NCBI GenBank assembly: GCA_017409825.1 | Contig: JAFQRZ010000031.1 | Span: 1-36,467, forward strand | Source of the DNA: Agathobacter sp. | Lineage (GTDB): Bacteria > Bacillota > Clostridia > Lachnospirales > Lachnospiraceae | Direction of reading: 5' to 3' | DNA length: 36,467 nucleotides | In this document: positions 2,218-12,885 of the stretch, piece after piece | Position numbering within the stretch: position 1 is the stretch's first letter | Layout of the letters: each line of letters opens with the position of its first letter | Notes under the pieces: generated by a model | The model's database searches: none | What the model saw: only the letters and a program-made list of their open reading frames with translations | Told to the model about the DNA's origin: nothing | Translations under genes and position numbers: made by a program

Positions 2218-3633
2218 GTGGTAAGTATAAATGGTCAAGAGGTTGATTATCTTTCTGAATTGGTGATAGATGAGGAATGCATAACAAGAATTACGATAAA
2301 AGAAGTAGAACGTAAAATTTATGATAAAGTAAGAAGTGAAACTGTTGTAAATGTTGTTGTTAAGTATGAGGCGACATATATAACCATAGTAGAGTGTCAA
2401 TTAGTTAATAAGTCATACAGGATGGGCTCGGACTGTAATGAAAGCATAATTAATTTGAAGTATATGTCATCTTTGCTTCTGCTTGATTATTTGTGGATTT
2501 CTTCTCAGGAAATTCGATTTACTGGAATTAACTATGAAATCACGGAGATTACGGAGCTACTAGGTGTGTATCCATATAAAATAGATTATGATGAATTAGC
2601 ATTTCCTAGGGTGGAATGTGATATTAAAGGTGATGTTGTCTCAAAAATGGTAGGTCATGGGTTTTCCTATTTTGTTGCTCCTTCAATAACGCATGAACAA
2701 GATGGGCTGCATGTATCAATGTATGGCAGGATTCAATATTCGGGTGGAAAGGAAAGAAATATTAGTGAAATTTACGAGTTACTGAATAGTATTTGTTTGT
2801 TTTTTGAGATTCTGTCAGGTGAAATTATTACGATAGGGGATGTGCCTTTGAATCATGGTGAACGTTCGATTAAGACAGTAGGATTATGTAATTTTCCTAA
2901 GAATAAACTTAATTCATTGCAATCAAACTTTGATACCAGATCTTACCTGCGAAAAGGTCTTTTTAAGATTTCTGATTTTGAAGAGGGGATTGGCTCGGCT
3001 ATTACGGTGTTTTATAAGATTCAGAATGAGTGTATGTTGGCTTGTGAAGCCTATAAGCAAATACTTTTGGATGAGGAAATAAAAATAAGCACATACAATA
3101 AATTCTTGAAGGTTATGCAAGTTGTGGAGGGCTTTCAGAGGACAAAGATTGATGAGAGTGAAGAAGTAGAGTTTGATAATAAAAAGAACGAGCTTATGGA
3201 GAAACTGGACGAGACTGATAGGGCATTTGTAAAGAAATATACATTTTATAATGGGCAGAATTTCAGAAAGTGTATGAATGAATTTACAATAGGGAGCATT
3301 CAAATTATATCAGGATTGCCAAGAACAAAAGCTAAAGAAGCGAGTGAGAAAATTATTGGTAAGATAATAAATGATAGAGATGTATATACACATGCATCCA
3401 AAGAGGCAAGACCTATATTAACTATAGAAGAATTACAAGCAGTTAATTATTGTTATAAGAGTTTCTTTAGGGTATTGGTATTAAATAATATGGGTTTGTC
3501 AGAACGGATTATAAGAAAACGATTACTGTTTGATAGAAAATTTGTAGTATATTATGAGAAGTTATTTAAACTCAAGATAGAAAAAGAAGATAATTATCAT
3601 GATACAGGAGAATTTGATCAAATGATGTGGTGA
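2218..3633 (+). CDS. ApeA-like HEPN ribonuclease, probable phage-defence protein (apparent 5' frame disruption)
   Basis: A 471-residue frame. The N-terminal half (to about 270) is beta-rich and resembles the ApeA N-terminal domain; the C-terminal half is alpha-helical and ends in an Apea-like HEPN domain with the catalytic-type motif R-x4-H as RDVYTH (R387 to H392). HEPN domains of this kind cleave RNA in abortive phage defence, and ApeA is a single-protein defence system. The start is doubtful. The only strong ribosome site, AAAGGAGG at 2171-2178, serves ATG 2184, but that frame stops at 2246. Removing one A from the seven-A run at 2192-2198 would join ATG 2184 to the long frame as MDIKNTTYACRVVSINGQ. 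So either the run is slippery or phase-variable, or this is a frameshift (real or sequencing error); the fallback start, GTG 2218, has no ribosome site. Family assignment is by pattern, moderately sure. Confidence 0.65.
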   Translation: MVSINGQEVDYLSELVIDEECITRITIKEVERKIYDKVRSETVVNVVVKYEATYITIVECQLVNKSYRMGSDCNESIINLKYMSSLLLLDYLWISSQEIRFTGINYEITEITELLGVYPYKIDYDELAFPRVECDIKGDVVSKMVGHGFSYFVAPSITHEQDGLHVSMYGRIQYSGGKERNISEIYELLNSICLFFEILSGEIITIGDVPLNHGERSIKTVGLCNFPKNKLNSLQSNFDTRSYLRKGLFKISDFEEGIGSAITVFYKIQNECMLACEAYKQILLDEEIKISTYNKFLKVMQVVEGFQRTKIDESEEVEFDNKKNELMEKLDETDRAFVKKYTFYNGQNFRKCMNEFTIGSIQIISGLPRTKAKEASEKIIGKIINDRDVYTHASKEARPILTIEELQAVNYCYKSFFRVLVLNNMGLSERIIRKRLLFDRKFVVYYEKLFKLKIEKEDNYHDTGEFDQMMW

Positions 3634-3672: not shown

Positions 3673-3699
3673 TAAAGAAAAATGTGTAAATGCCGATAT
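3673..3699 (+). promoter_or_regulatory. Sigma-D (flagellar sigma) type promoter, copy 1
   Basis: TAAA (3673-3676), 15 bases, then GCCGATAT (3692-3699) match the Bacillus sigma-D consensus TAAA-N15-GCCGATAT at every position. Transcription would start near 3706, in front of the GGATTG-loop hairpin and the gene at 3786. Confidence 0.8.
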
Positions 3700-3716
3700 A
3701 TGTTATAGCTAAGGAA

Positions 3717-3764
3717 AGCGTCTATTTTCAAAGGATTGAATTTGAAAATAGACGCTGTTTTTTT
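3717..3764 (+). promoter_or_regulatory. GGATTG-loop hairpin with T-tract, copy 1 (attenuator, small RNA end or CsrA site)
   Basis: A perfect 16-bp stem, 3717-3732 with 3741-3756, encloses the loop GGATTGAA; seven T follow (3758-3764). It lies between a sigma-D-like promoter and the ribosome site of the next gene. The loop sequence AAAGGATTG contains ARGGAT, the core of the CsrA recognition sequence, presented as CsrA prefers in a hairpin, and a second GGA lies just before the stem (TAAGGAAAG). From the predicted start to the T-tract is about 60 bases, so it could be a separate small RNA or an attenuator. Confidence 0.7.
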
Positions 3765-3785
3765 GTTTGGATTGGAGGTTTTATT

Positions 3786-4751
3786 ATGAGAATACAAGCA
3801 CCAAATACATTTTATACAGGGACTTACTCTGTTTTGAATACGAATAGTGGTTCATCATTTCCGTATGCGATGAAAGTTGAAGGGTATGGAAATTCAGGAA
3901 ACCAAAAGAGCTTATTTCAGTTTGCACATGTGATAATAACGGAACATATGGTAAATGCAAAATATGGTACAAAGATTACAAATGGTCCGAGGATACAGAT
4001 GCAGACAGCGGGGAGTAAGAAAACGGAAGAATGGGTAAATGTTTCCAAAGAAGAGTTAGAGGCAGTAAAACTCCCAGATTCTTTTGAAGAATTAAAGAAA
4101 GAAAACTCTTTTTATTATCATGGAGAAGCAATAACTGATTATGAACTGATACAGACTGCAGTAGCATTAGGTAAAATGGAACTGCCTGTAGACGAAGCAA
4201 AAGACAATCCCTTTAAAGTCGCAATGGATGCGTTTGAAGTGCTTGTCAGAGACCAGGCAGCTCCGAAAAACTCATGGTCAAATACATTGTATTCTGAAGA
4301 TGGAAAATATACCTTTACAAAGACTGAAAGTGGAAGATGGCTTATGCATTTGTTGGATGATGTTGGGATGGAAGCTTCTGTGGAAGATATTGCGAATTGG
4401 ATGATGAGTGGCACGCCCAATAGAAATATTGAGACACGCTACCTGAATTATCTTCATACTGTAGATCCGGATTTATATAATGTGGCTATGCGAATAGGTT
4501 CGGAAGTCCGTACAAATGGTTTTATGGAGGATTTACACCAGCAGGGAATATTAAGTGATAGTCAAAATCAGTATGATATGAGTCTGTTGGGTATGTTGTT
4601 TGGTAAAGATGCGGATAGTATGCGTCTGTTATTGCATGGGTGTAAAGAGTCAGGAAATTTTTTTGAGTTGTTGGATTTATACAGCCCAGATGGAGCAAAA
4701 TCGTTGGATAAGCTTCGGGAACAGCAAAGCAAGAATGGTGGAATTGTTTAG
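3786..4751 (+). CDS. Unknown protein of the sigma-D-type region, starts MRIQAPNTFYTG
   Basis: A 321-residue protein of no family I recognise. ATG 3786 is chosen because TTGGAGG stands eight bases before it; the frame could be extended to 3690 but that part lies in the promoter and hairpin. There is no signal peptide, no membrane segment and only one cysteine, near the C-terminus. The first 30 residues are rich in S, N, T and Y and look disordered; the rest is acidic and mostly helical, with a conserved-looking NTLYSEDGKYTFTKTESGRW segment near residue 195 and a C-terminal helical part. The start MRI followed by a polar, flexible leader resembles substrates of the flagellar type III exporter, which fits the sigma-D-type promoter upstream, but this is inference. 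It is the first gene of the 3786-11879 cluster and is separated from the next by its own promoter. Confidence 0.8.
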   Translation: MRIQAPNTFYTGTYSVLNTNSGSSFPYAMKVEGYGNSGNQKSLFQFAHVIITEHMVNAKYGTKITNGPRIQMQTAGSKKTEEWVNVSKEELEAVKLPDSFEELKKENSFYYHGEAITDYELIQTAVALGKMELPVDEAKDNPFKVAMDAFEVLVRDQAAPKNSWSNTLYSEDGKYTFTKTESGRWLMHLLDDVGMEASVEDIANWMMSGTPNRNIETRYLNYLHTVDPDLYNVAMRIGSEVRTNGFMEDLHQQGILSDSQNQYDMSLLGMLFGKDADSMRLLLHGCKESGNFFELLDLYSPDGAKSLDKLREQQSKNGGIV

Positions 4752-4797
4752 TATAAATGATTCATTCCCATTCAGATAAGGTTTCGTTCCATTACGC

Positions 4798-4824
4798 TAA
4801 GAAAAAATGAATATTGGTCGATAT
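4798..4824 (+). promoter_or_regulatory. Sigma-D type promoter, copy 2
   Basis: TAAG (4798-4801), 15 bases, GTCGATAT (4817-4824): one mismatch in each box against TAAA-N15-GCCGATAT and the same spacing as copy 1. The bases that follow (GTTAATAGCTAGGAGAGCG) are also closely related to those behind copy 1. Confidence 0.7.
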
Positions 4825-4840
4825 AGTTAATAGCTAGGAG

Positions 4841-4888
4841 AGCGTCTATTTTCAAAGGATTGAATTTGAAGATAGACGCTTATTTTTT
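4841..4888 (+). promoter_or_regulatory. GGATTG-loop hairpin with T-tract, copy 2
   Basis: Stem 4841-4856 with 4865-4880 and loop GGATTGAA, followed by TATTTTTT. It is nearly identical to copy 1; the single difference in the right arm (A to G) replaces a U-A by a U-G pair and keeps the stem. As in copy 1 a second GGA (CTAGGAGAG) precedes the stem. It stands between promoter copy 2 and the twin-hairpin leader of the 4972 gene. Confidence 0.7.
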
Positions 4889-4906
4889 GCTAAATAATAT
4901 AATTAA

Positions 4907-4959
4907 ACCACTTGGACCTTTCGGAAAGTGGTGCAACTCTGACTGACAGATGAGTTGCA
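4907..4959 (+). promoter_or_regulatory. Twin-hairpin leader RNA element, copy A
   Basis: Hairpin 1: ACCACTT (4907-4913) pairs with AAGTGGT (4926-4932), loop GGACCTTTCGGA. Hairpin 2: GCAACTC (4933-4939) pairs with GAGTTGC (4952-4958), loop TGACTGACAGAT. The second stem ends two bases before the AAAGGAG ribosome site of the 4972 gene. Copy B at 10183-10234 has the same loops and spacing but different, still pairing, stem bases, which argues for a conserved RNA structure. I do not recognise it as a known riboswitch. Confidence 0.7.
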
Positions 4960-4971
4960 GAAAGGAGAAAT

Positions 4972-7122
4972 ATGGGTATCAATGGTGTAGGGGCATACTA
5001 TGCACAAAATTATGCTACACAAAACCGAAGTCGCGCTATAGGGCATAATGTGTCTGGACTTGGTGGTGAATCAATTGGAAATGCAACATCGCTTTCGGAA
5101 TCATCTAGTAACGGGAAGAAAATAGGTATCACTACGGTTGGAAACAAGGGATATATTGCAATGTATGCAGATTCCTCAACGGAACAAGATCCAGTTATTA
5201 AGATTGGAGATTATGAAGTAAGAGTGAAAGAGGTTAATCCAAACAATGCTACCAAAATGGAAATGTTTGCGTTAATGTCTTATTTGGATGACCAAGGTCT
5301 TACAAATGATCAAGGAATGAAGTCTTTTAACAAGATGACAGCGTATTCCGCACAGGCAGAGTATAATGGATATTGTAGTGGTCTCTCTAATGAGAATGCG
5401 GCATGGACAGAAAAAAGAGACTGGATTGGTATCTTAGGAAATGCAAAAGAATCATTTTACAACATACCTCAAACCTATGAACAGGGATTAGAGTGTGAAA
5501 AGATAATTGACAATTTAAAAAAGTACACTGGGTCATCTTTGAATTCTAATAGTGACTATCTATCACAAATTCATAAGAAGATAGAAGAAATGCAGGAAAA
5601 ACTTGATAACGATGAAGTAAATGAGTCTTTCCAAATTGGAGGGCAAACTTTTACTGTTGAAGAGTGGGATGAATTTTTAAAGAAGTTTGATTCTATCCAA
5701 GAGGCTATGGAAGCACTGATGAAAGAACGTCATACAAAAATGGAAGAGCAACAAACCAACACGGAAGAAGTGATAGATGCAACTACAACGGAAATGATAG
5801 TTTCTGAGAGTACATCTTGTACCTATCCGATAGGTAGTTCGAATGGCGAAGATGTGTTACATATTACCTGGTATACAGAGGAAGGAATCTTTTGTAGAAA
5901 AGCAGGACAAACCGAAGGATACGAATGGTCTATTCCATTTGAAAACAAAGAGCAATATAACAAAGTAATGGAATTTATTGGTCAGCTTCCAAAAGATAGT
6001 GATTGGAGATTTGCATCACAAGAAGGCTTTTGGAAAGATTTTTTGGATGATGAAATTGATATGAGTAGTTTTATAGATTCTATCAAGAATACAAACAAAA
6101 AAGTTGCTAGTAAAGAATATTCAGCAGAGGAAATACAAGAAGCTATTGACCGAGAGATTCAAAGCAATCAGCATAAGAAAAAATCCTTATATGAAATGTT
6201 AATCAATACATGTCCAGAAGGTACTAACGCTACATTTCGTTTTGTAGGAGAAAGTAAAATATATAATTTCTATGAATTTATTGAGGAGTTCCAAAGACGT
6301 TCTGATGAAATCTCTTTAGATTCAACATCTGCAATATCTAATACTAGAAGAACAGAAATAAAAGTTTCAAACTTTAAAGAACATGAAACTGCAAACTATA
6401 AGTTTGTTCCTGAACCAACGATTGGAAAAGGTGGTATGAGAATCTTAAAGAATGGTCAAAGCGTAGCAGTATTTTCTGCTGACAATTTGAAGATTCGAGT
6501 AGATGAGAAAACAGGAACAAGAGTCTTGATTAGTGAAATTCCAGGCATTGGTAATTCTTGGTATGATGCACTACCAGTAGATGTGGAATTAGAAAATGGA
6601 TTAGCAGAGGCAATAGGAGTAGATGATATTCCAGAGGTTGCTTTAGATGGTTACTACATTGGAACTCACGCTGGAACAGGAATACAGTATGTAATGAGAC
6701 CTGGCGATGAGGGACGAGGCGGTAAGGTGCTTCTTAAAGATGCAGCGGATGTGGCAAAATATAATGCTTTGGCAGAAGAATATTTTAACCGTTATCCTAA
6801 TTTAGTCACAAGTCCAGAATATGGAAGAATATATGCTTCTTTTGAAATCTGTGGAATGATGGAGCGAACACCAACAGGTTTTGTAAGGATTGGATTTGAC
6901 AATATTTCTTATAACGATAACTTGGACTATAAGAAGAATTGGAGTGCTAAGATAACTGGAGAGACATGGGATTTGTTATGGAAATGGTTAGAAGAGAACA
7001 GGAGCCATATGGAAGACGTAGGCGAGTTTAGTACTTGGGGTGATATTATAGACGAACTCGGAGGTTCATATGAAAGAGTTTGGTCTGATGAAGAGTTGTT
7101 ACAAGGGTACTTGAATAACTAA
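4972..7122 (+). CDS. Large unknown protein of the sigma-D-type region, starts MGINGVGAYYAQN
   Basis: A 716-residue protein without signal peptide or membrane segment; I recognise no family. ATG 4972 follows AAAGGAG at the usual distance. The first 55 residues (MGINGVGAYYAQNYATQNRS onward) are rich in N, Q, S and G and look unstructured. A helical, coiled-coil-like part is seen near residues 175-270, with an EEWDEFLKKF segment and many E, K and Q. A mixed alpha/beta middle part (about 285-370) carries HITWYTEEGIFCRKAG, and a long globular C-terminal part (about 460-716) contains YYIGTHAGTGIQYVMRPGDE. No catalytic motif stands out. The gene is led by its own sigma-D-type promoter, the GGATTG hairpin and twin-hairpin copy A, the last shared with the 10249 gene. 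It sits directly in front of the LytTR/GHKL pair, suggesting joint function. Confidence 0.8.
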   Translation: MGINGVGAYYAQNYATQNRSRAIGHNVSGLGGESIGNATSLSESSSNGKKIGITTVGNKGYIAMYADSSTEQDPVIKIGDYEVRVKEVNPNNATKMEMFALMSYLDDQGLTNDQGMKSFNKMTAYSAQAEYNGYCSGLSNENAAWTEKRDWIGILGNAKESFYNIPQTYEQGLECEKIIDNLKKYTGSSLNSNSDYLSQIHKKIEEMQEKLDNDEVNESFQIGGQTFTVEEWDEFLKKFDSIQEAMEALMKERHTKMEEQQTNTEEVIDATTTEMIVSESTSCTYPIGSSNGEDVLHITWYTEEGIFCRKAGQTEGYEWSIPFENKEQYNKVMEFIGQLPKDSDWRFASQEGFWKDFLDDEIDMSSFIDSIKNTNKKVASKEYSAEEIQEAIDREIQSNQHKKKSLYEMLINTCPEGTNATFRFVGESKIYNFYEFIEEFQRRSDEISLDSTSAISNTRRTEIKVSNFKEHETANYKFVPEPTIGKGGMRILKNGQSVAVFSADNLKIRVDEKTGTRVLISEIPGIGNSWYDALPVDVELENGLAEAIGVDDIPEVALDGYYIGTHAGTGIQYVMRPGDEGRGGKVLLKDAADVAKYNALAEEYFNRYPNLVTSPEYGRIYASFEICGMMERTPTGFVRIGFDNISYNDNLDYKKNWSAKITGETWDLLWKWLEENRSHMEDVGEFSTWGDIIDELGGSYERVWSDEELLQGYLNN

Positions 7123-7163
7123 ATTTTTCGTTCCAATAGAGGTAGCATTTGGTTCCTTTGCAA

Positions 7164-7190
7164 TTGAAAAACTAAATATTTTTACGATAT
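7164..7190 (+). promoter_or_regulatory. Weak sigma-D-like promoter, copy 3
   Basis: The box TACGATAT (7183-7190) keeps the CGATAT core of the sigma-D -10 element, but at a distance of 15 bases only TTGA (7164-7167) is found. It stands in front of hairpin copy 3 as in the other two copies, which is the main reason for listing it. Confidence 0.35.
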
Positions 7191-7205
7191 AATCAGCAAC
7201 AAGGG

Positions 7206-7247
7206 ATGGCATTTATTTTCAATGGATTGATTGGAGATAAGTGCCAT
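7206..7247 (+). promoter_or_regulatory. GGATTG-loop hairpin, copy 3, with compensated stem
   Basis: Stem 7208-7223 with 7230-7245 (two more pairs at the base, 7206-7207 with 7246-7247), three G-U pairs, loop GGATTG. The outer stem bases differ from copies 1 and 2 (GGCATTTA instead of AGCGTCTA) yet still pair fully. The T-tract is weak (TTCTGTTTTG), so this copy is a poor terminator and fits a regulatory leader better. The TTG start of the response regulator lies 29 bases behind it. Confidence 0.6.
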
Positions 7248-7275
7248 TTCTGTTTTGAAAGAAGAGGGTGATAAT

Positions 7276-7989
7276 TTGATTCGTATTGCGATTGTAGATG
7301 ATGAAAAATTCATTAGAGAGCATGTAAAAAAATTGATAGAGGATAAGCAGGCAGAGTGTTTGCTGGATACATATTCCACAGGAGAAACATTAATCCAAGC
7401 AGATAAATGCTATGACATAGTATTCCTTGATATACAGATGGATGGAATGAACGGCATAGATACAGCCAGAATATTAAGACAGAAAACGGAACATACAGTT
7501 TTAGTTTTTATCACTGGCGTAAAGGAATATGTTTTTGATGCTTTTGATGTAGCTGCGTTCCATTATTTGATAAAGCCAATTGACGAGCAGAAATTTGCAG
7601 ACGTTTTTAAGCGTGCAGTTTTAGAAGTGGGAAAGAAAAAACAGCAGGCAAATGGACAATTATTTGTTAAGACGAGATATCGTAATATCACTTTGGAGCA
7701 GAATGATGTTTTGTATATTGAAAGTCGAGGAAAAAAGGTAGAGATCCATACCAAGACAGATGTGATAGATGCTTATGCAGGCATAGGTGAGTTGGAAAAA
7801 CAGTTAAAACAGAATTTCTATCGCTGTCATAGAGGGTATCTCGTAAATTTAGCATTCATTACGGAATACAGTAATGACAGTATTACCTTAAACAATAGTG
7901 AAAGCATTATCTTGGCAAAGGAGAAGTATGGAGAATTTGTAAAGGTATATATGAGATATCTGAAAAATGGAGGTGGCATCTTTGTATAG
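7276..7989 (+). CDS. LytTR-family response regulator (AgrA-like)
   Basis: A 237-residue regulator: receiver domain (about 1-120) with phosphoacceptor D52 in VFLDIQMDGMNG, acidic pair DD at the start of the domain (IVDDEKF) and the conserved lysine in LIKPID; then a LytTR DNA-binding domain (about 135-235) with ILYIES-type strand (VLYIESRGKK) and the FYRCHRGYLVNL motif. Family members bind paired 9-bp repeats and control exported peptides, bacteriocins and surface traits. The start is TTG 7276, preceded by GAAGAGGGTGA; the longer frame to 7231 would run into hairpin copy 3. The gene overlaps the kinase by eight bases, so the two are a translationally coupled pair. Likely targets are the unknown genes on both sides. 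Confidence 0.9.
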   Translation: MIRIAIVDDEKFIREHVKKLIEDKQAECLLDTYSTGETLIQADKCYDIVFLDIQMDGMNGIDTARILRQKTEHTVLVFITGVKEYVFDAFDVAAFHYLIKPIDEQKFADVFKRAVLEVGKKKQQANGQLFVKTRYRNITLEQNDVLYIESRGKKVEIHTKTDVIDAYAGIGELEKQLKQNFYRCHRGYLVNLAFITEYSNDSITLNNSESIILAKEKYGEFVKVYMRYLKNGGGIFV

Positions 7990-9454
7990 CGTGGTAAGTG
8001 AATTATTTGGAATTGTAACCACTATTTTTACAGGATATTGCCTTGCGTATTATTTTGATTCCTTTATGGATCGAAAGAATCTGTTTTGGGGTTACGGGAA
8101 ATACATCGTTATCATTTTCTATGTCATTTGTGACTATTTACTGGATGGTTTCTTTCCAACTGTATTTGAAACAAAAGATACAATTGGAAAACAGGTATTG
8201 CTATTGGTAGTTGTATTTGGAATGGCTAAGGTGTTTTATTGTTCCAGAATTCAAATGCCTATTTTTCTAACAATTACTTTTGTTGCATTGAAGGATATAT
8301 CTTCTTTTATTTCCATAACAATCTCCATGTGTAGCGATAAAGTGTTTGATTTGTGGCTTGTGTTGTTGGAAAAGGGATATATTTCCGTTGAATCAGTGGA
8401 GAGTTTGATTTCATGGACGGCAGGCATTTTGCAGCTAAGCATGATGGTTGTGTATGGTATGTTGTTCTATCAATCATTAAAGATGGTGGTTAAGAATTAC
8501 AAAAGAAAAGAGCACTTTGTCAGTAAACAGGAATTGTTTTATTTACTGACTCCAGGGGGTGTTGGCTTTTTGTTGTGCGTATTACTTAGAACCATTCTTA
8601 TTACGATGGAAGATGGAATGCCAATGGATTTATTTGATAAGTATCCAGAACTCATTCCTGTGGTTCCATCAGTTATGATATTGTCGATTCTGTCTATTGT
8701 TTGTAGCGTGAAACTGTTCCAAGACATGATTATGGTAAATGAAGAAAGAAGTGAGAAATTCATTTTAGAAAAGCAAATGAAGAGTATGCAGGAACACATT
8801 GCAGAGATGGAACATATCTACAGTGGAGTACGTAGTATGAAGCACGACATGAAAAATACGCTTTCCGTAATTATGCAGCTTGCAGTAAATGAGGATGTTA
8901 AGTCAAATGTGGAGTTGCAGAACTATCTCTCAGAACTGAATCAGACGATGGATAAGTTGGAATTTCAGTATAAAACAGGCAACACAGTGGTGGATATTCT
9001 ACTGAATATGAAATACCACGAATTGACACGGGTTATGCCAGATGTTCAGTTAAACACAGATAGGCTACTATTCCTAGATGATTTGCAGATTCAGGGCTAT
9101 GATATTGGAATTATTATTGGAAACGCTTTGGATAATGCAATCGAAGCCTGTAAGAAACTAAAAGAGCAGAACCAAAGTGCAGATGCTTTTATTACGCTGT
9201 CCTCATTTACCAGAGGAAAGATGTTCTTTATTGAAGTAGAGAACAGTTTTGATGGAAAGATTATTCGGAAAAAATACTCCGAGTTTCCGATAACGGATAA
9301 GAAAGATAAAGAGGCTCACGGAATCGGACTAAGTAATATCAAGAAAACAGCAGAAAAATATCACGGTGGCGTGGATTGGTCTGTTGAAAATAAAAAATTT
9401 ACTTTAACGATTATGTTACAAAATGAAAGGGGAGAGGAAAGTGAATCTTGGTAA
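7982..9454 (+). CDS. GHKL-domain sensor histidine kinase (AgrC-like)
   Basis: About 490 residues. The N-terminal 250 residues hold six or seven hydrophobic segments, a membrane sensor of the AgrC type. Then come a coiled linker, a dimerisation part with the phosphorylated histidine in RSMKHDMKNTLS, and a GHKL ATPase with the N box GNALDNAIEAC and the G box HGIGLSNIKK; the family's usual F box is not obvious. TTG 7982 is preferred, with GGAGG eight bases upstream; ATG 7967, used by the longest frame, contains that ribosome site. The gene overlaps the regulator upstream (8 bases) and the DUF6033-like gene downstream (14 bases). No separate peptide precursor gene of the AgrD type is visible, so the signal is unknown; AgrB is also absent. 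Confidence 0.9.
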   Translation: MYSVVSELFGIVTTIFTGYCLAYYFDSFMDRKNLFWGYGKYIVIIFYVICDYLLDGFFPTVFETKDTIGKQVLLLVVVFGMAKVFYCSRIQMPIFLTITFVALKDISSFISITISMCSDKVFDLWLVLLEKGYISVESVESLISWTAGILQLSMMVVYGMLFYQSLKMVVKNYKRKEHFVSKQELFYLLTPGGVGFLLCVLLRTILITMEDGMPMDLFDKYPELIPVVPSVMILSILSIVCSVKLFQDMIMVNEERSEKFILEKQMKSMQEHIAEMEHIYSGVRSMKHDMKNTLSVIMQLAVNEDVKSNVELQNYLSELNQTMDKLEFQYKTGNTVVDILLNMKYHELTRVMPDVQLNTDRLLFLDDLQIQGYDIGIIIGNALDNAIEACKKLKEQNQSADAFITLSSFTRGKMFFIEVENSFDGKIIRKKYSEFPITDKKDKEAHGIGLSNIKKTAEKYHGGVDWSVENKKFTLTIMLQNERGEESESW

Positions 9455-10181
9455 TGTAGCAAGTGTTATGCAAATGGCATATCAAAAAGCAAATCAAACA
9501 CAGAGAGCATCTGTAAGTGGTAATGATTTTGCAAGTAGATTGCAGGAAGCAAAAGATACAAATATGTCAAAAGTGGATGTTTATACCGAACAACTTAGGT
9601 CAAAGTTTGGAAATGTAATGATTATGTCTGTCGGAAAAGACCAGAATAGTATGGATAATCTGGGAATGGGAACATCAGGATATTCAAATGTTGTAATTGC
9701 ACCAAATATTCTGGAACAGATGGCAAATGATCCTGAAAAGGCTGCCTATTATGAAGAAAAAATACAGCAGCATTTTGACTCAATACCAGAGACAGAGGCA
9801 TTTATGAAAGCGATGGGGCATGTTACGACTTCTTGTGGAGTTGTTATACATGAGGATGGCTCAGTAACATATTATCTTAGCGGTGAAGAAGGACCTGAGA
9901 AGAAAGCAGAATTTGAGGCTGCACAAAAGGCAAAGCGAGAAAAGAAAGCAGAAAAACGAAGAGAAGAAATGGAGCGTAGCAAAGAGATTGCTGAGACGAG
10001 AAGACAGGAGTTAGAAAGTCAATATCGTTATCACATGATGGAACAAATGAGTAATGGACAAATATTTAATGAGATAGTTGCTTTCTGTTATTTGGATTCA
10101 TCTCAAGTAGTTACACCATCGTATTCGGCATATGAAAGAGCAATTAGTTCAATAAGTAGTAATGTAATTTCAGGAATTTAA
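9441..10181 (+). CDS. DUF6033-like protein a
   Basis: A 246-residue protein resembling DUF6033, a family of Lachnospiraceae with no known function. GTG 9441 is chosen because AGGGGAGAGG precedes it; ATG 9423 would contain that site. It begins VNLGNVASVMQMAYQKAN, followed by a polar stretch with NDFASRLQEAK. The core (50-150) contains VVIAPNILEQMANDPEKA and a strand pair SCGVVIHEDGSVTYYLSG. Residues 155-200 are a highly charged helix of K, E and R (coiled coil likely), then a QYRYHMMEQM segment. No signal peptide or membrane segment is present. It overlaps the kinase gene by 14 bases, strong evidence for a common transcript and shared pathway. It shares its core pattern with the 10249 product, so the two are paralogues. 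Confidence 0.75.
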   Translation: MNLGNVASVMQMAYQKANQTQRASVSGNDFASRLQEAKDTNMSKVDVYTEQLRSKFGNVMIMSVGKDQNSMDNLGMGTSGYSNVVIAPNILEQMANDPEKAAYYEEKIQQHFDSIPETEAFMKAMGHVTTSCGVVIHEDGSVTYYLSGEEGPEKKAEFEAAQKAKREKKAEKRREEMERSKEIAETRRQELESQYRYHMMEQMSNGQIFNEIVAFCYLDSSQVVTPSYSAYERAISSISSNVISGI

Positions 10182-10182
10182 A

Positions 10183-10234
10183 CTGCTCGGACCTTCATGG
10201 AGAGCAGAGCAACCTTGACTGACAGATGGGTTGC
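10183..10234 (+). promoter_or_regulatory. Twin-hairpin leader RNA element, copy B
   Basis: Hairpin 1: CTGCTC (10183-10188) with GAGCAG (10202-10207), loop GGACCTTCATGGA. Hairpin 2: GCAACC (10209-10214) with GGTTGC (10229-10234), loop again TGACTGACAGAT plus one closing T-G pair. Compared with copy A the loops are kept while both sides of the stems changed together. It fills the whole gap between the DUF6033-like genes and ends three bases before the GAAGGGGG ribosome site. Confidence 0.7.
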
Positions 10235-10248
10235 AGGAAGGGGGTACT

Positions 10249-11208
10249 ATGATAGATAGTATGCAGTTTGGTTCAATTATGATGAACTGTGGGAGATATA
10301 CAGAAAATAAAACGTCGGGAAGAGAGCAGGTAAACTCTTTTAGTGGAGTTTTAAAAAGTAAGAGTGCTGCATCGGTAGATGCGGCCAAAACTGAGGAAAC
10401 AGCAGGAACAGAGAAAGTATCATTGGAGAGTATGTTAAAAGCTAAGTATCCGAATCTTGTTTACAATGTAGGAGATGCAACAAGTAGTGCTTGGCGCACA
10501 AGAAATGATTATCCATTTGAAGCATTATTTCAAGAGAGTGAAAAATCAGTAGAGCAGATAGAAAACTGGAGCCCAACGAGAGCTAATCCAAAGAATCAAA
10601 GATATATACCTATAGCCCCAGGGTGCAAGGCTGTTATGATACATCCGAAAGCACAGGAAAGAGTGGAAAATGATCCTGAATTTGCACAGGAAGTCATGGA
10701 ACGTATCGAGAGCTGGTGGGCTTATGATATCGCAAGAAATGAAGCAATATCTCCTGGTTGTACAGTTGGAATGTCTCAAGCAATCGCTATCGGAGAGGAT
10801 GGAGAAATTGCTAATGTGCTTGCTTGTGGTGGTGGAGATTCCATTAGTATGAATAAAAACAAGAATGATGATGAAGACCAATATGACTGGTGGATGGAGA
10901 GAATGGCTCGTCATGCCATGTATATGGAGTTGCTTCGTACAGGTAAAATTGATTATAGCAAGTATGCATTTTTTAAAAGTGGTTCGTTTGGTTCTTTCGG
11001 CGGTTCAGGTTTTAATAGCATGAATAGTATGCTTGCGATGCAGTCTGGGCAATCAGCAGAACGAGAAATTCACAGTATGTTACAGAATGGGTTGAAAGAG
11101 AAGTTGGGTGATACAATTTGTGGTATGCCAACAGATGAAGTGATTGACGGAACATGGAAAGATATTGAAGAAGGACGTTCTATAAGAATGTCGTTAATGA
11201 TGATGTAG
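10249..11208 (+). CDS. DUF6033-like protein b (paralogue of the 9441 product)
   Basis: A 319-residue protein. ATG 10249 follows AAGGGGG; the frame up to 10231 lies in the twin-hairpin element. The N-terminal 60 residues (MIDSMQFGSIMMNCGRYTEN..., with SFSGVLKSKSAAS) are polar and unstructured. The core shares with the 9441 product the pattern V-x-I-x-P ... NDPE-x-A ... E-x-I, seen here as AVMIHPKAQERVENDPEFA, and a G-EDG strand (AIAIGEDGEIANVLACGGG). A tryptophan pair (ESWWAYDI, YDWWMERM) and a Gly/Ser/Phe-rich patch (SGSFGSFGGSGF) follow. There is no signal peptide. Same transcript as its neighbours; the leader shares structure with that of the 4972 gene. Function unknown; export by the flagellar route is a guess based on N-terminus and region. 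Confidence 0.7.
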   Translation: MIDSMQFGSIMMNCGRYTENKTSGREQVNSFSGVLKSKSAASVDAAKTEETAGTEKVSLESMLKAKYPNLVYNVGDATSSAWRTRNDYPFEALFQESEKSVEQIENWSPTRANPKNQRYIPIAPGCKAVMIHPKAQERVENDPEFAQEVMERIESWWAYDIARNEAISPGCTVGMSQAIAIGEDGEIANVLACGGGDSISMNKNKNDDEDQYDWWMERMARHAMYMELLRTGKIDYSKYAFFKSGSFGSFGGSGFNSMNSMLAMQSGQSAEREIHSMLQNGLKEKLGDTICGMPTDEVIDGTWKDIEEGRSIRMSLMMM

Positions 11209-11219
11209 GAGGTTGTGGT

Positions 11220-11879
11220 ATGAGAATTACGACACAGATGTTAAATGAATCAGCAAGAAAGGCGGGGCTTCCAATAAACCATACTTCTTTGTTAAATTAC
11301 ATTAAGAGTGATGGAAAACAAAATACTTTGTTGGATGCTCTGAATAAAAGCAATGAAACTTCAGTGAAAAAGGGAAGTTATGAGAAGATTGATAAAGAAG
11401 CAGACAAGTTAATGCAAGCTGCTAATAATTTGATACAAAGCGGAGAAAATAGTGTATTTGAACAAGCAAAAACAAGTAATGATTATCAAAAGGTATATGA
11501 TGGAATAGAAAAACTATTTGAACGATATAATGGAACGCTGGAAGCATTAAAATCCACACCAAATACTATGAATAATTTTTACAGAGAAATGATGTTAGAA
11601 GCTTCAGCAGAAACAAAAGAAAGTCTTTCTGGTGTAGGAATTACATTTGTGAAAGACGGAACTGCTAGAGTTGATATGGAGAAGATAAAAGCAACTGATT
11701 TTGAAACACTAGAAGGTTTGTTTGGAACAGAAAGCGATTTTGTAAATAAAATTAGATTTTTAGCTGAAAAGGTTTCAAATAATGCGGAGGAAAATATTAG
11801 AAGTTTAAACAGTGCCTATAATGCAAGCGGTAGCATATATGCAGCTATTGGAAACAGTAAATTTGACTTTTGGGGCTAG
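11220..11879 (+). CDS. Unknown helical protein with flagellin/FlgL-like first residues (MRITTQML)
   Basis: A 219-residue, largely helical protein. The first residues, MRITTQMLNESARKAG, recall the N-terminus of FlgL and flagellins (MRI-T/S-x-x-M), which belongs to their export and assembly part; the match is short and does not prove homology. The C-terminal part (FVNKIRFLAEKVSNNAEENI, then SAYNASGSIY) is amphipathic, like the tail of filament-cap or hook-associated proteins. ATG 11220 follows GTAGGAGG. It comes 11 bases after the preceding gene and is followed by a terminator at 11936, so it is the last gene of the cluster. It gives the best protein-level hint that the cluster belongs to the flagellar regulon. 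An exported adhesin or chaperone are alternatives. Confidence 0.75.
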   Translation: MRITTQMLNESARKAGLPINHTSLLNYIKSDGKQNTLLDALNKSNETSVKKGSYEKIDKEADKLMQAANNLIQSGENSVFEQAKTSNDYQKVYDGIEKLFERYNGTLEALKSTPNTMNNFYREMMLEASAETKESLSGVGITFVKDGTARVDMEKIKATDFETLEGLFGTESDFVNKIRFLAEKVSNNAEENIRSLNSAYNASGSIYAAIGNSKFDFWG

Positions 11880-11935
11880 AGTAACGGCGGATATTAAATG
11901 AGAATGTAGAATATGTACACATAAAATAAGTTCGA

Positions 11936-11964
11936 GCCGATTGGTGTAATACCAATCGGCTTTT
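11936..11964 (+). terminator. Rho-independent terminator closing the 3786-11879 cluster
   Basis: Arms GCCGATTGGT (11936-11945) and ACCAATCGGC (11951-11960), loop GTAAT, then TTTT. It has no GGATTG loop, unlike the hairpins inside the cluster. Confidence 0.9.
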
Positions 11965-12285: not shown

Positions 12286-12885
12286 ATGGAAGACGAAAAA
12301 AAATTAAAAGCAGAAGACGAAGAGAAAAATACAAAAGCAGGTGTGCCAGCAGATTCTTTCAAAGGTTTACCAATGAACGAGTTAATTTCTGCACCATTGA
12401 TTGCTGTAAGTGAAGCTCAGAAACAGCTTACTGATTCAGCCTTGGACTTTTATAATAAAATTGCTTTTGAAGATGATGCGAAAGCACGTTGTTTAGAATT
12501 TAATTTGAAATATCCCGTTCAGATATCTGATAGTATAGGAACGCAAGAAGTTCACGTAGAAGCACCATTTTTAGGGTTAGTTCCTATACCTTCATTGTTG
12601 ATTGATAATGTAGACGTCAATTTCCAGATGGAGGTTACAGATACATCGACTTCAAAGAACTCAGAAAATGCAGATTTGAGTGCAGATATGACCCCAAAAA
12701 GGTTCGGATATAGTGTAAGTGTGCAAGGAAAGGTAAAGGCATCCAGAGAGAATACAAGCAGTACCGATCAGAATGAAAAATATCAGGTATCGGTATCAGC
12801 GATCCAGCGGCCACAGGCAGAAGGTCTATCTAAATTGATGGATACTATGGCAAGTTGCATAGAACCATTGGATAAAAAGGAATAA
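12286..12885 (+). CDS. DUF2589 family protein
   Basis: A 199-residue cytoplasmic protein. After a charged, low-complexity leader (about 25 residues rich in E, D and K) comes the DUF2589 hallmark, LPMNELISAPLIAVSEAQKQ, where an LP-x(4)-I-x-x-PL pattern leads into a helix, followed by a beta-rich part (VHVEAPFLGLVPIPSLLIDN, then VDVNFQMEV). Family members have no established function. ATG 12286 is six bases behind TTGGAGG; the frame could start at TTG 12274 but that is the ribosome site itself. It stands alone between two terminators. Relation to the cluster before it is not shown by the sequence. Confidence 0.85.
   Translation: MEDEKKLKAEDEEKNTKAGVPADSFKGLPMNELISAPLIAVSEAQKQLTDSALDFYNKIAFEDDAKARCLEFNLKYPVQISDSIGTQEVHVEAPFLGLVPIPSLLIDNVDVNFQMEVTDTSTSKNSENADLSADMTPKRFGYSVSVQGKVKASRENTSSTDQNEKYQVSVSAIQRPQAEGLSKLMDTMASCIEPLDKKE

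Follow-up and report, generated by a model that had tools for sequence, protein, structure and literature searches.

The gene cluster at positions 3,673 to 11,964 of an Agathobacter sp. contig (Lachnospiraceae; assembly GCA_017409825.1, contig JAFQRZ010000031.1, of which the 36,467 nucleotides (nt) of the forward strand are called the window here) quite likely forms an island linked to the flagellum, whose products would probably be exported by the flagellar type III apparatus and made in time with the hook, under the control of a LytTR/GHKL two-component pair, sigma-D and probably CsrA. The cluster comprises that pair and five further genes, whose products we call P1, P2, P5, P6 and P7 by their place in the cluster. 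By sequence comparison the messages for P2 and P6 share a twin-hairpin RNA leader with the hook gene flgE, and the LytTR/GHKL pair is, by its domain matches, a frequent neighbour of such genes in relatives. The P5 family is nearly confined to flagellated genomes of this bacterial family, and the proteins may leave through the flagellum. Export by the flagellar type III exporter had been proposed in a sequence-only reading of the window from promoters and N-termini, and the leader shared with flgE, together with a motif of hook-class appearance, would put that prediction on a firmer footing.

The cluster and the leader it shares with flgE

By open reading frame (ORF) listing the plus strand has seven ORFs in one direction, spanning 3786-11879, which are the seven closely set genes first described for the cluster. 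Lengths are in amino acids (aa), and L numbers denote loci discussed below.

3786..4751, plus strand: P1, 321 aa; homologues in L151, and in L013 upstream of a DUF6033 gene
4972..7122, plus strand: P2, 716 aa, modular; relatives share its C-terminal module
7276..7989, plus strand: LytTR-type response regulator, TTG start; Pfam Response_reg 9.8e-19, LytTR 3.2e-18
7967..9454, plus strand: GHKL-type histidine kinase; Pfam HATPase_c_5 4.5e-25
9441..10181, plus strand: P5, DUF6033 family, 246 aa; PF19498 6.4e-29; FxxxPhi at residues 30-34
10249..11208, plus strand: P6, 319 aa; FSGVL at residues 31-35; remote P5 relative (hhalign)
11220..11879, plus strand: P7, 219 aa; MRITTQM start; weak FliD-like segment
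4905..4972, plus strand: twin-hairpin leader before P2, the same element as the flgE leader; single-sequence z -2.3
10180..10248, plus strand: twin-hairpin leader before P6; single-sequence z -1.6

The overlapping starts noted for the middle of the cluster were also found, the LytTR gene overlapping the GHKL gene and the GHKL gene that for P5, and the gap between the P6 and P7 genes is 11 nt.

Both twin-hairpin leaders end at the ribosome-binding site, directly ahead of the gene. Their single-sequence z values are only -2.3 and -1.6, and it is comparative evidence that establishes them. For 7 sequences that a core pattern picked out and that were aligned independently of any model, 11 of 13 pairs have double changes and 98.9% of cells are paired. 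The values are 97.7% of cells paired and 358 double-change cells for 94 sequences, and 96.1% and 279 for 148 sequences from named loci. In all three alignments the cells paired, the double-change cells and the covariation score exceed those of all 500 shuffles. The consensus has GGAC(C/U)U as the loop of hairpin 1 and UGANUGACAGA as the loop of hairpin 2. The two related leaders of the sequence-only reading are thus one covarying element that recurs across genomes. Rfam at its gathering score gave no match to the leader in the window, a search of six loci up to E 10 gave none at the twin-hairpin element, and the titles and abstract openings listed by literature searches show nothing on it, those from one of the searches having no flgE either. 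Neither Rfam nor these listed results contain a structured leader that flgE shares with putatively flagellum-secreted non-flagellar proteins.

For its distribution we used a sample of 348 genomes of the family from 333 genera, the genome of the window ("own genome") included. A covariance-model search, for which E values are rough, found the leader in 105 of these, 102 of them with FlhA; the three others have weak matches (E 0.003-0.009). In the own genome the leader is placed between a TIGR02530 gene and flgE. This copy was missed by the strict genome search and found by a local search (E 4.3e-7), and the figure of 105 is thus a lower bound. Among 150 places listed, at least 45 matches are on the strand of flhA and 8-18 kb upstream of it, and in the 20 of these that were fetched a flgE-type start follows directly after the leader in all 20. 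The association with flgE extends beyond the family: in a class-level draw of 291 genomes there is a leader match in 17, of which 15 are outside the own family, and 14 of these 15 precede flgE, in genomes with 10 different family labels. The only one that does not is the weakest match.

The leader also recurs before cluster genes of other genomes. A scan of named genomes with the P5 alignment gave 164 confirmed places, and from the best 80 of these come the 79 cluster loci used here, some of them shortened by contig ends. They contain 151 leader matches, in 61 of the 79 loci and all on the P5 strand. The 148 aligned hits comprise 64 before DUF6033/P6 genes, 33 before P2-type genes and 36 before other ORFs, with no ORF within 90 nt for the remaining 15. 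A second P2-type gene group with a twin-hairpin leader is present in the own genome away from the window (L072 7609-7677, C17:187608).

Association with flagella

The sequence-only reading had tied the cluster to flagella although no flagellar gene is in the window. The own genome is flagellated: FlhA is at G000:C17:41833 and, by sequence, inside a long run of flagellar and chemotaxis genes, and a second locus has, by sequence, flgM, flgN, flgK twice, flgL, fliW, csrA, flaG, fliD, fliS twice and flagellins. There are five Flagellin_N matches and one CsrA match, and the fliW- and csrA-like genes, recognised by sequence and the latter also by family match, are adjacent. The three flagellin leaders examined all have sigma-D-like promoters, and two of them have a hairpin with AAGGAT or ATGGAT as loop and TTCAAGGAGG at the start, which the third is without.

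In the family sample DUF6033 is present in 119 of the 348 genomes (118 over the cut-off), and FlhA and CsrA in 184 each. FlhA is found in 118 of the 119 DUF6033 genomes as against 66 of the 229 without DUF6033 (Fisher p 3e-43, shared descent being ignored). The remaining DUF6033 genome, G235, has CsrA, and for that reason its FlhA contig may simply be missing. The P5 family is thus far from being equally common in genomes without flagella, the finding that would have spoken against the proposed tie. In the class-level draw DUF6033 is in 15 genomes, 8 of them in the own family. In Thermotoga maritima, one of four control genomes with FlhA, the DUF6033 model matches weakly, below the cut-off.

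The products and the export-like motif

P5 scores 101.7 bits for DUF6033 (PF19498) against a gathering cut-off of 25. The Pfam description gives no function for this family, and a literature search on the name DUF6033 found no paper. P6 has no Pfam family and does not reach the DUF6033 gathering cut-off, its kinship with P5 being seen by profile-profile alignment only (hhalign probability 97.4, E 1.4e-11). Family searches with P1, P2 and P7 gave none over the cut-off. All five products were judged to be free of signal peptides from a reading of the N-termini. The predicted structure of P5 combines a small alpha/beta domain and a long helix, with a confident core at about residues 41-200; residues 1-27 are of low confidence and probably flexible. 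At L204 (6554-7987) a P6-like N-terminal part is joined to the P2 C-terminal module, which suggests that the proteins may be mosaics.

As described in the accessible part of PMC8983047, the gate-recognition motif by which rod and hook subunits are docked at FlhB (FlgD 36-FLTLL-40) lies 30 or more residues in. P5 and P6 have FxxxPhi at about this distance, at residues 30-34 and 31-35. In an alignment of 34 P5 sequences (A6, with 33 relatives from the 79 loci, entered as matched stretches instead of whole ORFs) F30 is invariant and L34 is conserved at 90% or more; in an earlier alignment of 10 rows F30 was at 90% or more. FxxxPhi falls within residues 21-64 in 92 of the 119 unique leader-borne proteins of the clusters, compared with 26.5 in shuffles; over the first 75 residues of these proteins it occurs 106 times, with 81 of the occurrences beginning at residues 26-35. 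The 630 control ORFs of the same loci have no such positional peak. In an earlier set, drawn from different loci, 40 of 64 leader-borne proteins had the motif against 17.9 in shuffles, four leader-borne ORFs having been dropped beforehand and the L135 member being really flgE. All 22 leader-borne FlgE of that earlier analysis have the motif. By analogy, the FxxxPhi of P5, P6 and many relatives looks like an export tag of the hook class and not of the filament class. A candidate N-terminal pattern, M-x-[IVLM]-x-G-[ILVAM], is in 76 of the 119 leader-borne proteins, a count made without a control.

Promoters, hairpins and repeats in the window

The other features of the cluster region are as follows.

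3673..3699, plus strand: sigma-D-type promoter of P1, TAAA-N15-GCCGATAT, pattern match
3717..3756, plus strand: leader hairpin 1 (P1), loop GGATTGAA with GGA, T-run after the stem; z -6.3; CsrA-site-like and attenuator-like
4764..4790, plus strand: [AG]TTCC in two copies at a period of 22, the second ending 7 nt before the P2 -35
4798..4824, plus strand: sigma-D-type promoter of P2, TAAG-N15-GTCGATAT, read in the sequence
4840..4881, plus strand: leader hairpin 2 (P2), GGA in the loop; z -6.6; terminator-like
7130..7156, plus strand: [AG]TTCC in two copies at a period of 22, the second ending 7 nt before the LytTR -35
7164..7193, plus strand: sigma-A-like promoter of the LytTR gene, TTGAAA-18-TATAAT, 11/12 matches
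about 7208..7245, plus strand: leader hairpin 3 (LytTR), loop GGATTG; z -6.8
11936..11964, plus strand: terminal hairpin (11936-11960) and TTTT, read in the sequence

The two sigma-D-type promoters, the three related hairpins and the terminator at the end of the cluster had all been described from the sequence, and each is present, the terminator as a visible hairpin and TTTT that the terminator scan did not list. The consensus for the flagellar sigma of this bacterial group is given as TAAA-N16/17-MCGATA in the accessible part of PMC3720852. Tested against the sigma-28 (sigma-D) consensus the P1 promoter is exact and the P2 promoter matches with TAAG; no sigma-D promoter was seen in the region upstream of the LytTR gene. 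In the own genome the bare sigma-D pattern has 13 matches as against 17 for the reversed pattern, and since there is thus no enrichment it is informative by placement only.

A CsrA site, according to the accessible part of PMC4894983, has GGA in the apical loop, as in the hexaloop CANGGANG, and a further GGA near the start. The P1, P2 and LytTR hairpins have this arrangement, with GGA in the loop and a second GGA nearby, and from this sequence likeness CsrA probably acts on those of P1 and P2. All three are also terminator-like in the terminator scan, so attenuation is possible besides CsrA binding. The [AG]TTCC pairs, of which there are two in the region (Markov control 0.005, for a pattern chosen only after the sequence was read), are a candidate regulator box.

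Next to the cluster are an AAA_14/DUF4143 ATPase by Pfam (949-2148, upstream), a relative of which sits within the L058 cluster (blast cluster c11), an ApeA-like protein with the N-terminal domain and a HEPN domain (2218-3633; Pfam 1.7e-13 and 4.6e-11), presumably of the kind known from anti-phage defence, and, past the terminal hairpin, a DUF2589 protein (12286-12885; E 1.7e-32).

The cluster in relatives

The 79 loci are mostly from entries titled Lachnospiraceae and include Eubacterium plexicaudatum, Schaedlerella arabinosiphila, Parablautia intestinalis and Pseudobutyrivibrio ruminis. GHKL genes are present in 62, LytTR genes in 55, P2-type genes in 43, P7 in 8 and P1 in 1. A frequent order is LytTR, GHKL, DUF6033 (often two or more) and P2-type genes, and L151 preserves the order P1, P2, LytTR, GHKL, P5, P6. 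At L057 the cluster adjoins, by sequence, flagellin and flgF/flgG-like starts. The earlier proposal that the kinase senses a signal to which the proteins respond is partly backed as regards the regulators, with GHKL in 62 and LytTR in 55 of the 79 loci and paired repeats before two promoters; the signal itself is a supposition.

DUF6033 also occurs as a single gene. One such gene, at L049 6884-7591 (own genome C21:78997), has upstream a GTCGATAT element, a GGA hairpin and CAAGGAGG; at L013 a P1 homologue, in an ORF ending at 1229, is immediately upstream of another. For 30 single-gene DUF6033 the number with a sigma-D-like promoter varied with the pattern: strict 6 (reversed 0), relaxed 9 (reversed 1), and 16 (reversed 0) with a widened pattern and re-chosen starts. 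In an 18-locus subset there were 10. A GGA hairpin is present in 16 of the 30 and CA(A/G)GGAG at the ribosome site in 20, and in the 18-locus subset GGA hairpins are at 12, compared with 2.2 in shuffles.

At L056 (6077-16515) and L070 DUF6033 genes are interleaved with CcpM-family radical SAM maturases, a TIGR04066 gene and a TIGR04069-like gene, the last below its cut-off; the maturase genes were found by family search at L056 and by blast clusters at L070.

Proposed mechanism and alternatives

In the mechanism that we favour the kinase would sense an outside signal and the LytTR regulator would act at the paired repeats before its own promoter and that of P2, while sigma-D, and probably CsrA/FliW, would couple expression of P1 and P2 to the flagellar state. 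The twin-hairpin leader would hold back translation, perhaps by pairing of the hairpin 1 loop with the ribosome-binding site, and would release it once hook-class export is active. The proteins would then dock at FlhB via FxxxPhi and exit through the growing flagellum, to serve as secreted factors or as accessories of hook or filament.

Several observations weigh against this account. DUF6033 is lacking from 66 of the 184 FlhA genomes, and in the strict search 82 of them have no leader match. Leader alignments A3 and A8 were fitted to a covariance model. Comparison of the predicted P5 structure with known folds gave no clear match. FxxxPhi in residues 21-64 is also found in 272 of the 630 control ORFs, 60 of 66 GHKL and 32 of 59 LytTR proteins, and because controls so often contain the motif it is its position, not its presence, that is telling. 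Even so, the peak at 26-35 sits at the lower limit of the rod/hook range as given in the accessible part of PMC8983047, the N-termini of P1, P2 and P7 are without the motif, and relatives labelled P2 and P7 have it in 42 of 74 and 1 of 8 cases respectively. The leader-borne proteins are largely paralogues and the genomes are related, so that the counts are not independent.

The difficulties extend to sigma-D. Control by sigma-D fits P1, P2 and many single-gene DUF6033 (16 of 30, reversed 0). In the cluster loci, 169 cluster genes have a free region upstream, and a sigma-D-like promoter was seen there in only 14 (2 reversed); other genes of the 79 loci have 12, and 10 reversed, of 342, and LytTR genes 7 of 57 as against 1 reversed. 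With so few in relatives' clusters, the suggestion that the proteins are made late is uncertain. Genes under sigma-D are normally on after the export gate has left hook mode, so that sigma-D timing conflicts with a hook-class tag and leader, the gate then being past that mode. If several flagella are built at once, new ones beside existing ones, the two would be reconciled.

The evidence from the leader and from co-occurrence is equally compatible with an intracellular role, in which the proteins would regulate flagellar assembly or act as its chaperones, for instance by titrating FlhB or hook subunits, and the leader would be no more than a translational operator held in common with flgE. A fold such as that modelled for P5 would be plausible in a cytosolic partner. 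Against this, an FxxxPhi placed after 27 probably flexible residues suits an export signal, and the many lineage-specific copies would resemble surface or secreted factors; we regard an intracellular role as rather unlikely. We give a similarly low rating to the view that the proteins belong to the flagellum itself as accessories, decorating its hook, junction or cap, and are not released. The leader in common with flgE would fit that view, as would the MRITTQM start of P7, which is like that of FlgL, and its FliD-like segment (profile against PDB, 5fhy, E 3.5e-4). However, in three genomes no FliD among the matches listed scores better than E 0.5 against the P7 profile, and P1, P2 and P6 have no similarity to any structural protein over the cut-off.

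Much less probable is an Agr-like or peptide-maturation signalling system whose location in a motile lineage is incidental. The LytTR/GHKL pair is, we assume, of the AgrA/AgrC kind, and L056 has CcpM, TIGR04066 and, below the cut-off, TIGR04069-like genes beside DUF6033. But the two peptide-maturation blast clusters are, among the matches listed, in 2 of the 22 loci compared, none was seen in the window, and the flgE leader would be left unexplained. A gene of L056 that by eye we guessed to be AgrB-like had no NCBIfam match, no search for AgrB/AgrD having been made. As for the possibility that loose model matching and common ancestry have created the link between leader and flgE, the genomes and paralogues are indeed related, the model E values rough and the larger alignments model-fitted. 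However covariation is present already in the 7 sequences aligned without a model, outside the own family the place before flgE is fixed across 14 genomes that bear 10 different family labels, and all 151 leader matches in the cluster loci are on one strand, and we consider an artefact highly improbable.

The role of mRNA in the sorting of type III substrates, and the coordination of hook synthesis with assembly, are old open questions. It is conceivable, and we put it forward tentatively, that the leader is a sorting and timing device at the mRNA level, which couples translation of hook-class substrates to the open gate, is old enough to occupy flgE in several families of the class, and has been copied by lineages onto many new proteins, making the growing flagellum a general secretion route. 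A covarying leader common to flgE and many uncharacterised proteins is in any case a concrete element to mutate. If the flagellum-linked export island proposed here is real, it would give a first role to DUF6033 and several orphan families of motile Lachnospiraceae, and would mean that in this group non-flagellar proteins are secreted by way of the flagellum.

Comparison with known systems

Non-flagellar proteins that are co-expressed with flagella under sigma-28 are already known in Campylobacter jejuni (Feds, FspA and FlaC), and several are reported to be secreted through the flagellum (PMC9856085, in the part accessible to us). The window likewise has non-flagellar proteins with promoters of the flagellar sigma type, the likeness being one of description. 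The twin-hairpin leader is not mentioned in the accessible part of PMC9856085, and the cluster differs further from the Feds in having LytTR/GHKL as a frequent neighbour and a hook-class export-like motif.

With regard to control of flagellin leaders by CsrA/FliW, two of the three own flagellin leaders carry a GGA hairpin of the kind involved. The twin-hairpin leader is distinct from such hairpins: its loop 1 has GGAC, its loop 2 has GACAGA, and it precedes flgE and not flagellin. The gate-recognition motif of rod and hook subunits has its counterpart in the FxxxPhi about 30 residues into P5, P6 and many leader-borne proteins; the differences are the early peak, the absence of the motif from P1, P2 and P7, and the hydrophobic N-terminal signal, which is only a candidate here. 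Among named protein families the nearest is DUF6033 (PF19498), with P5 a member and P6 a remote relative.

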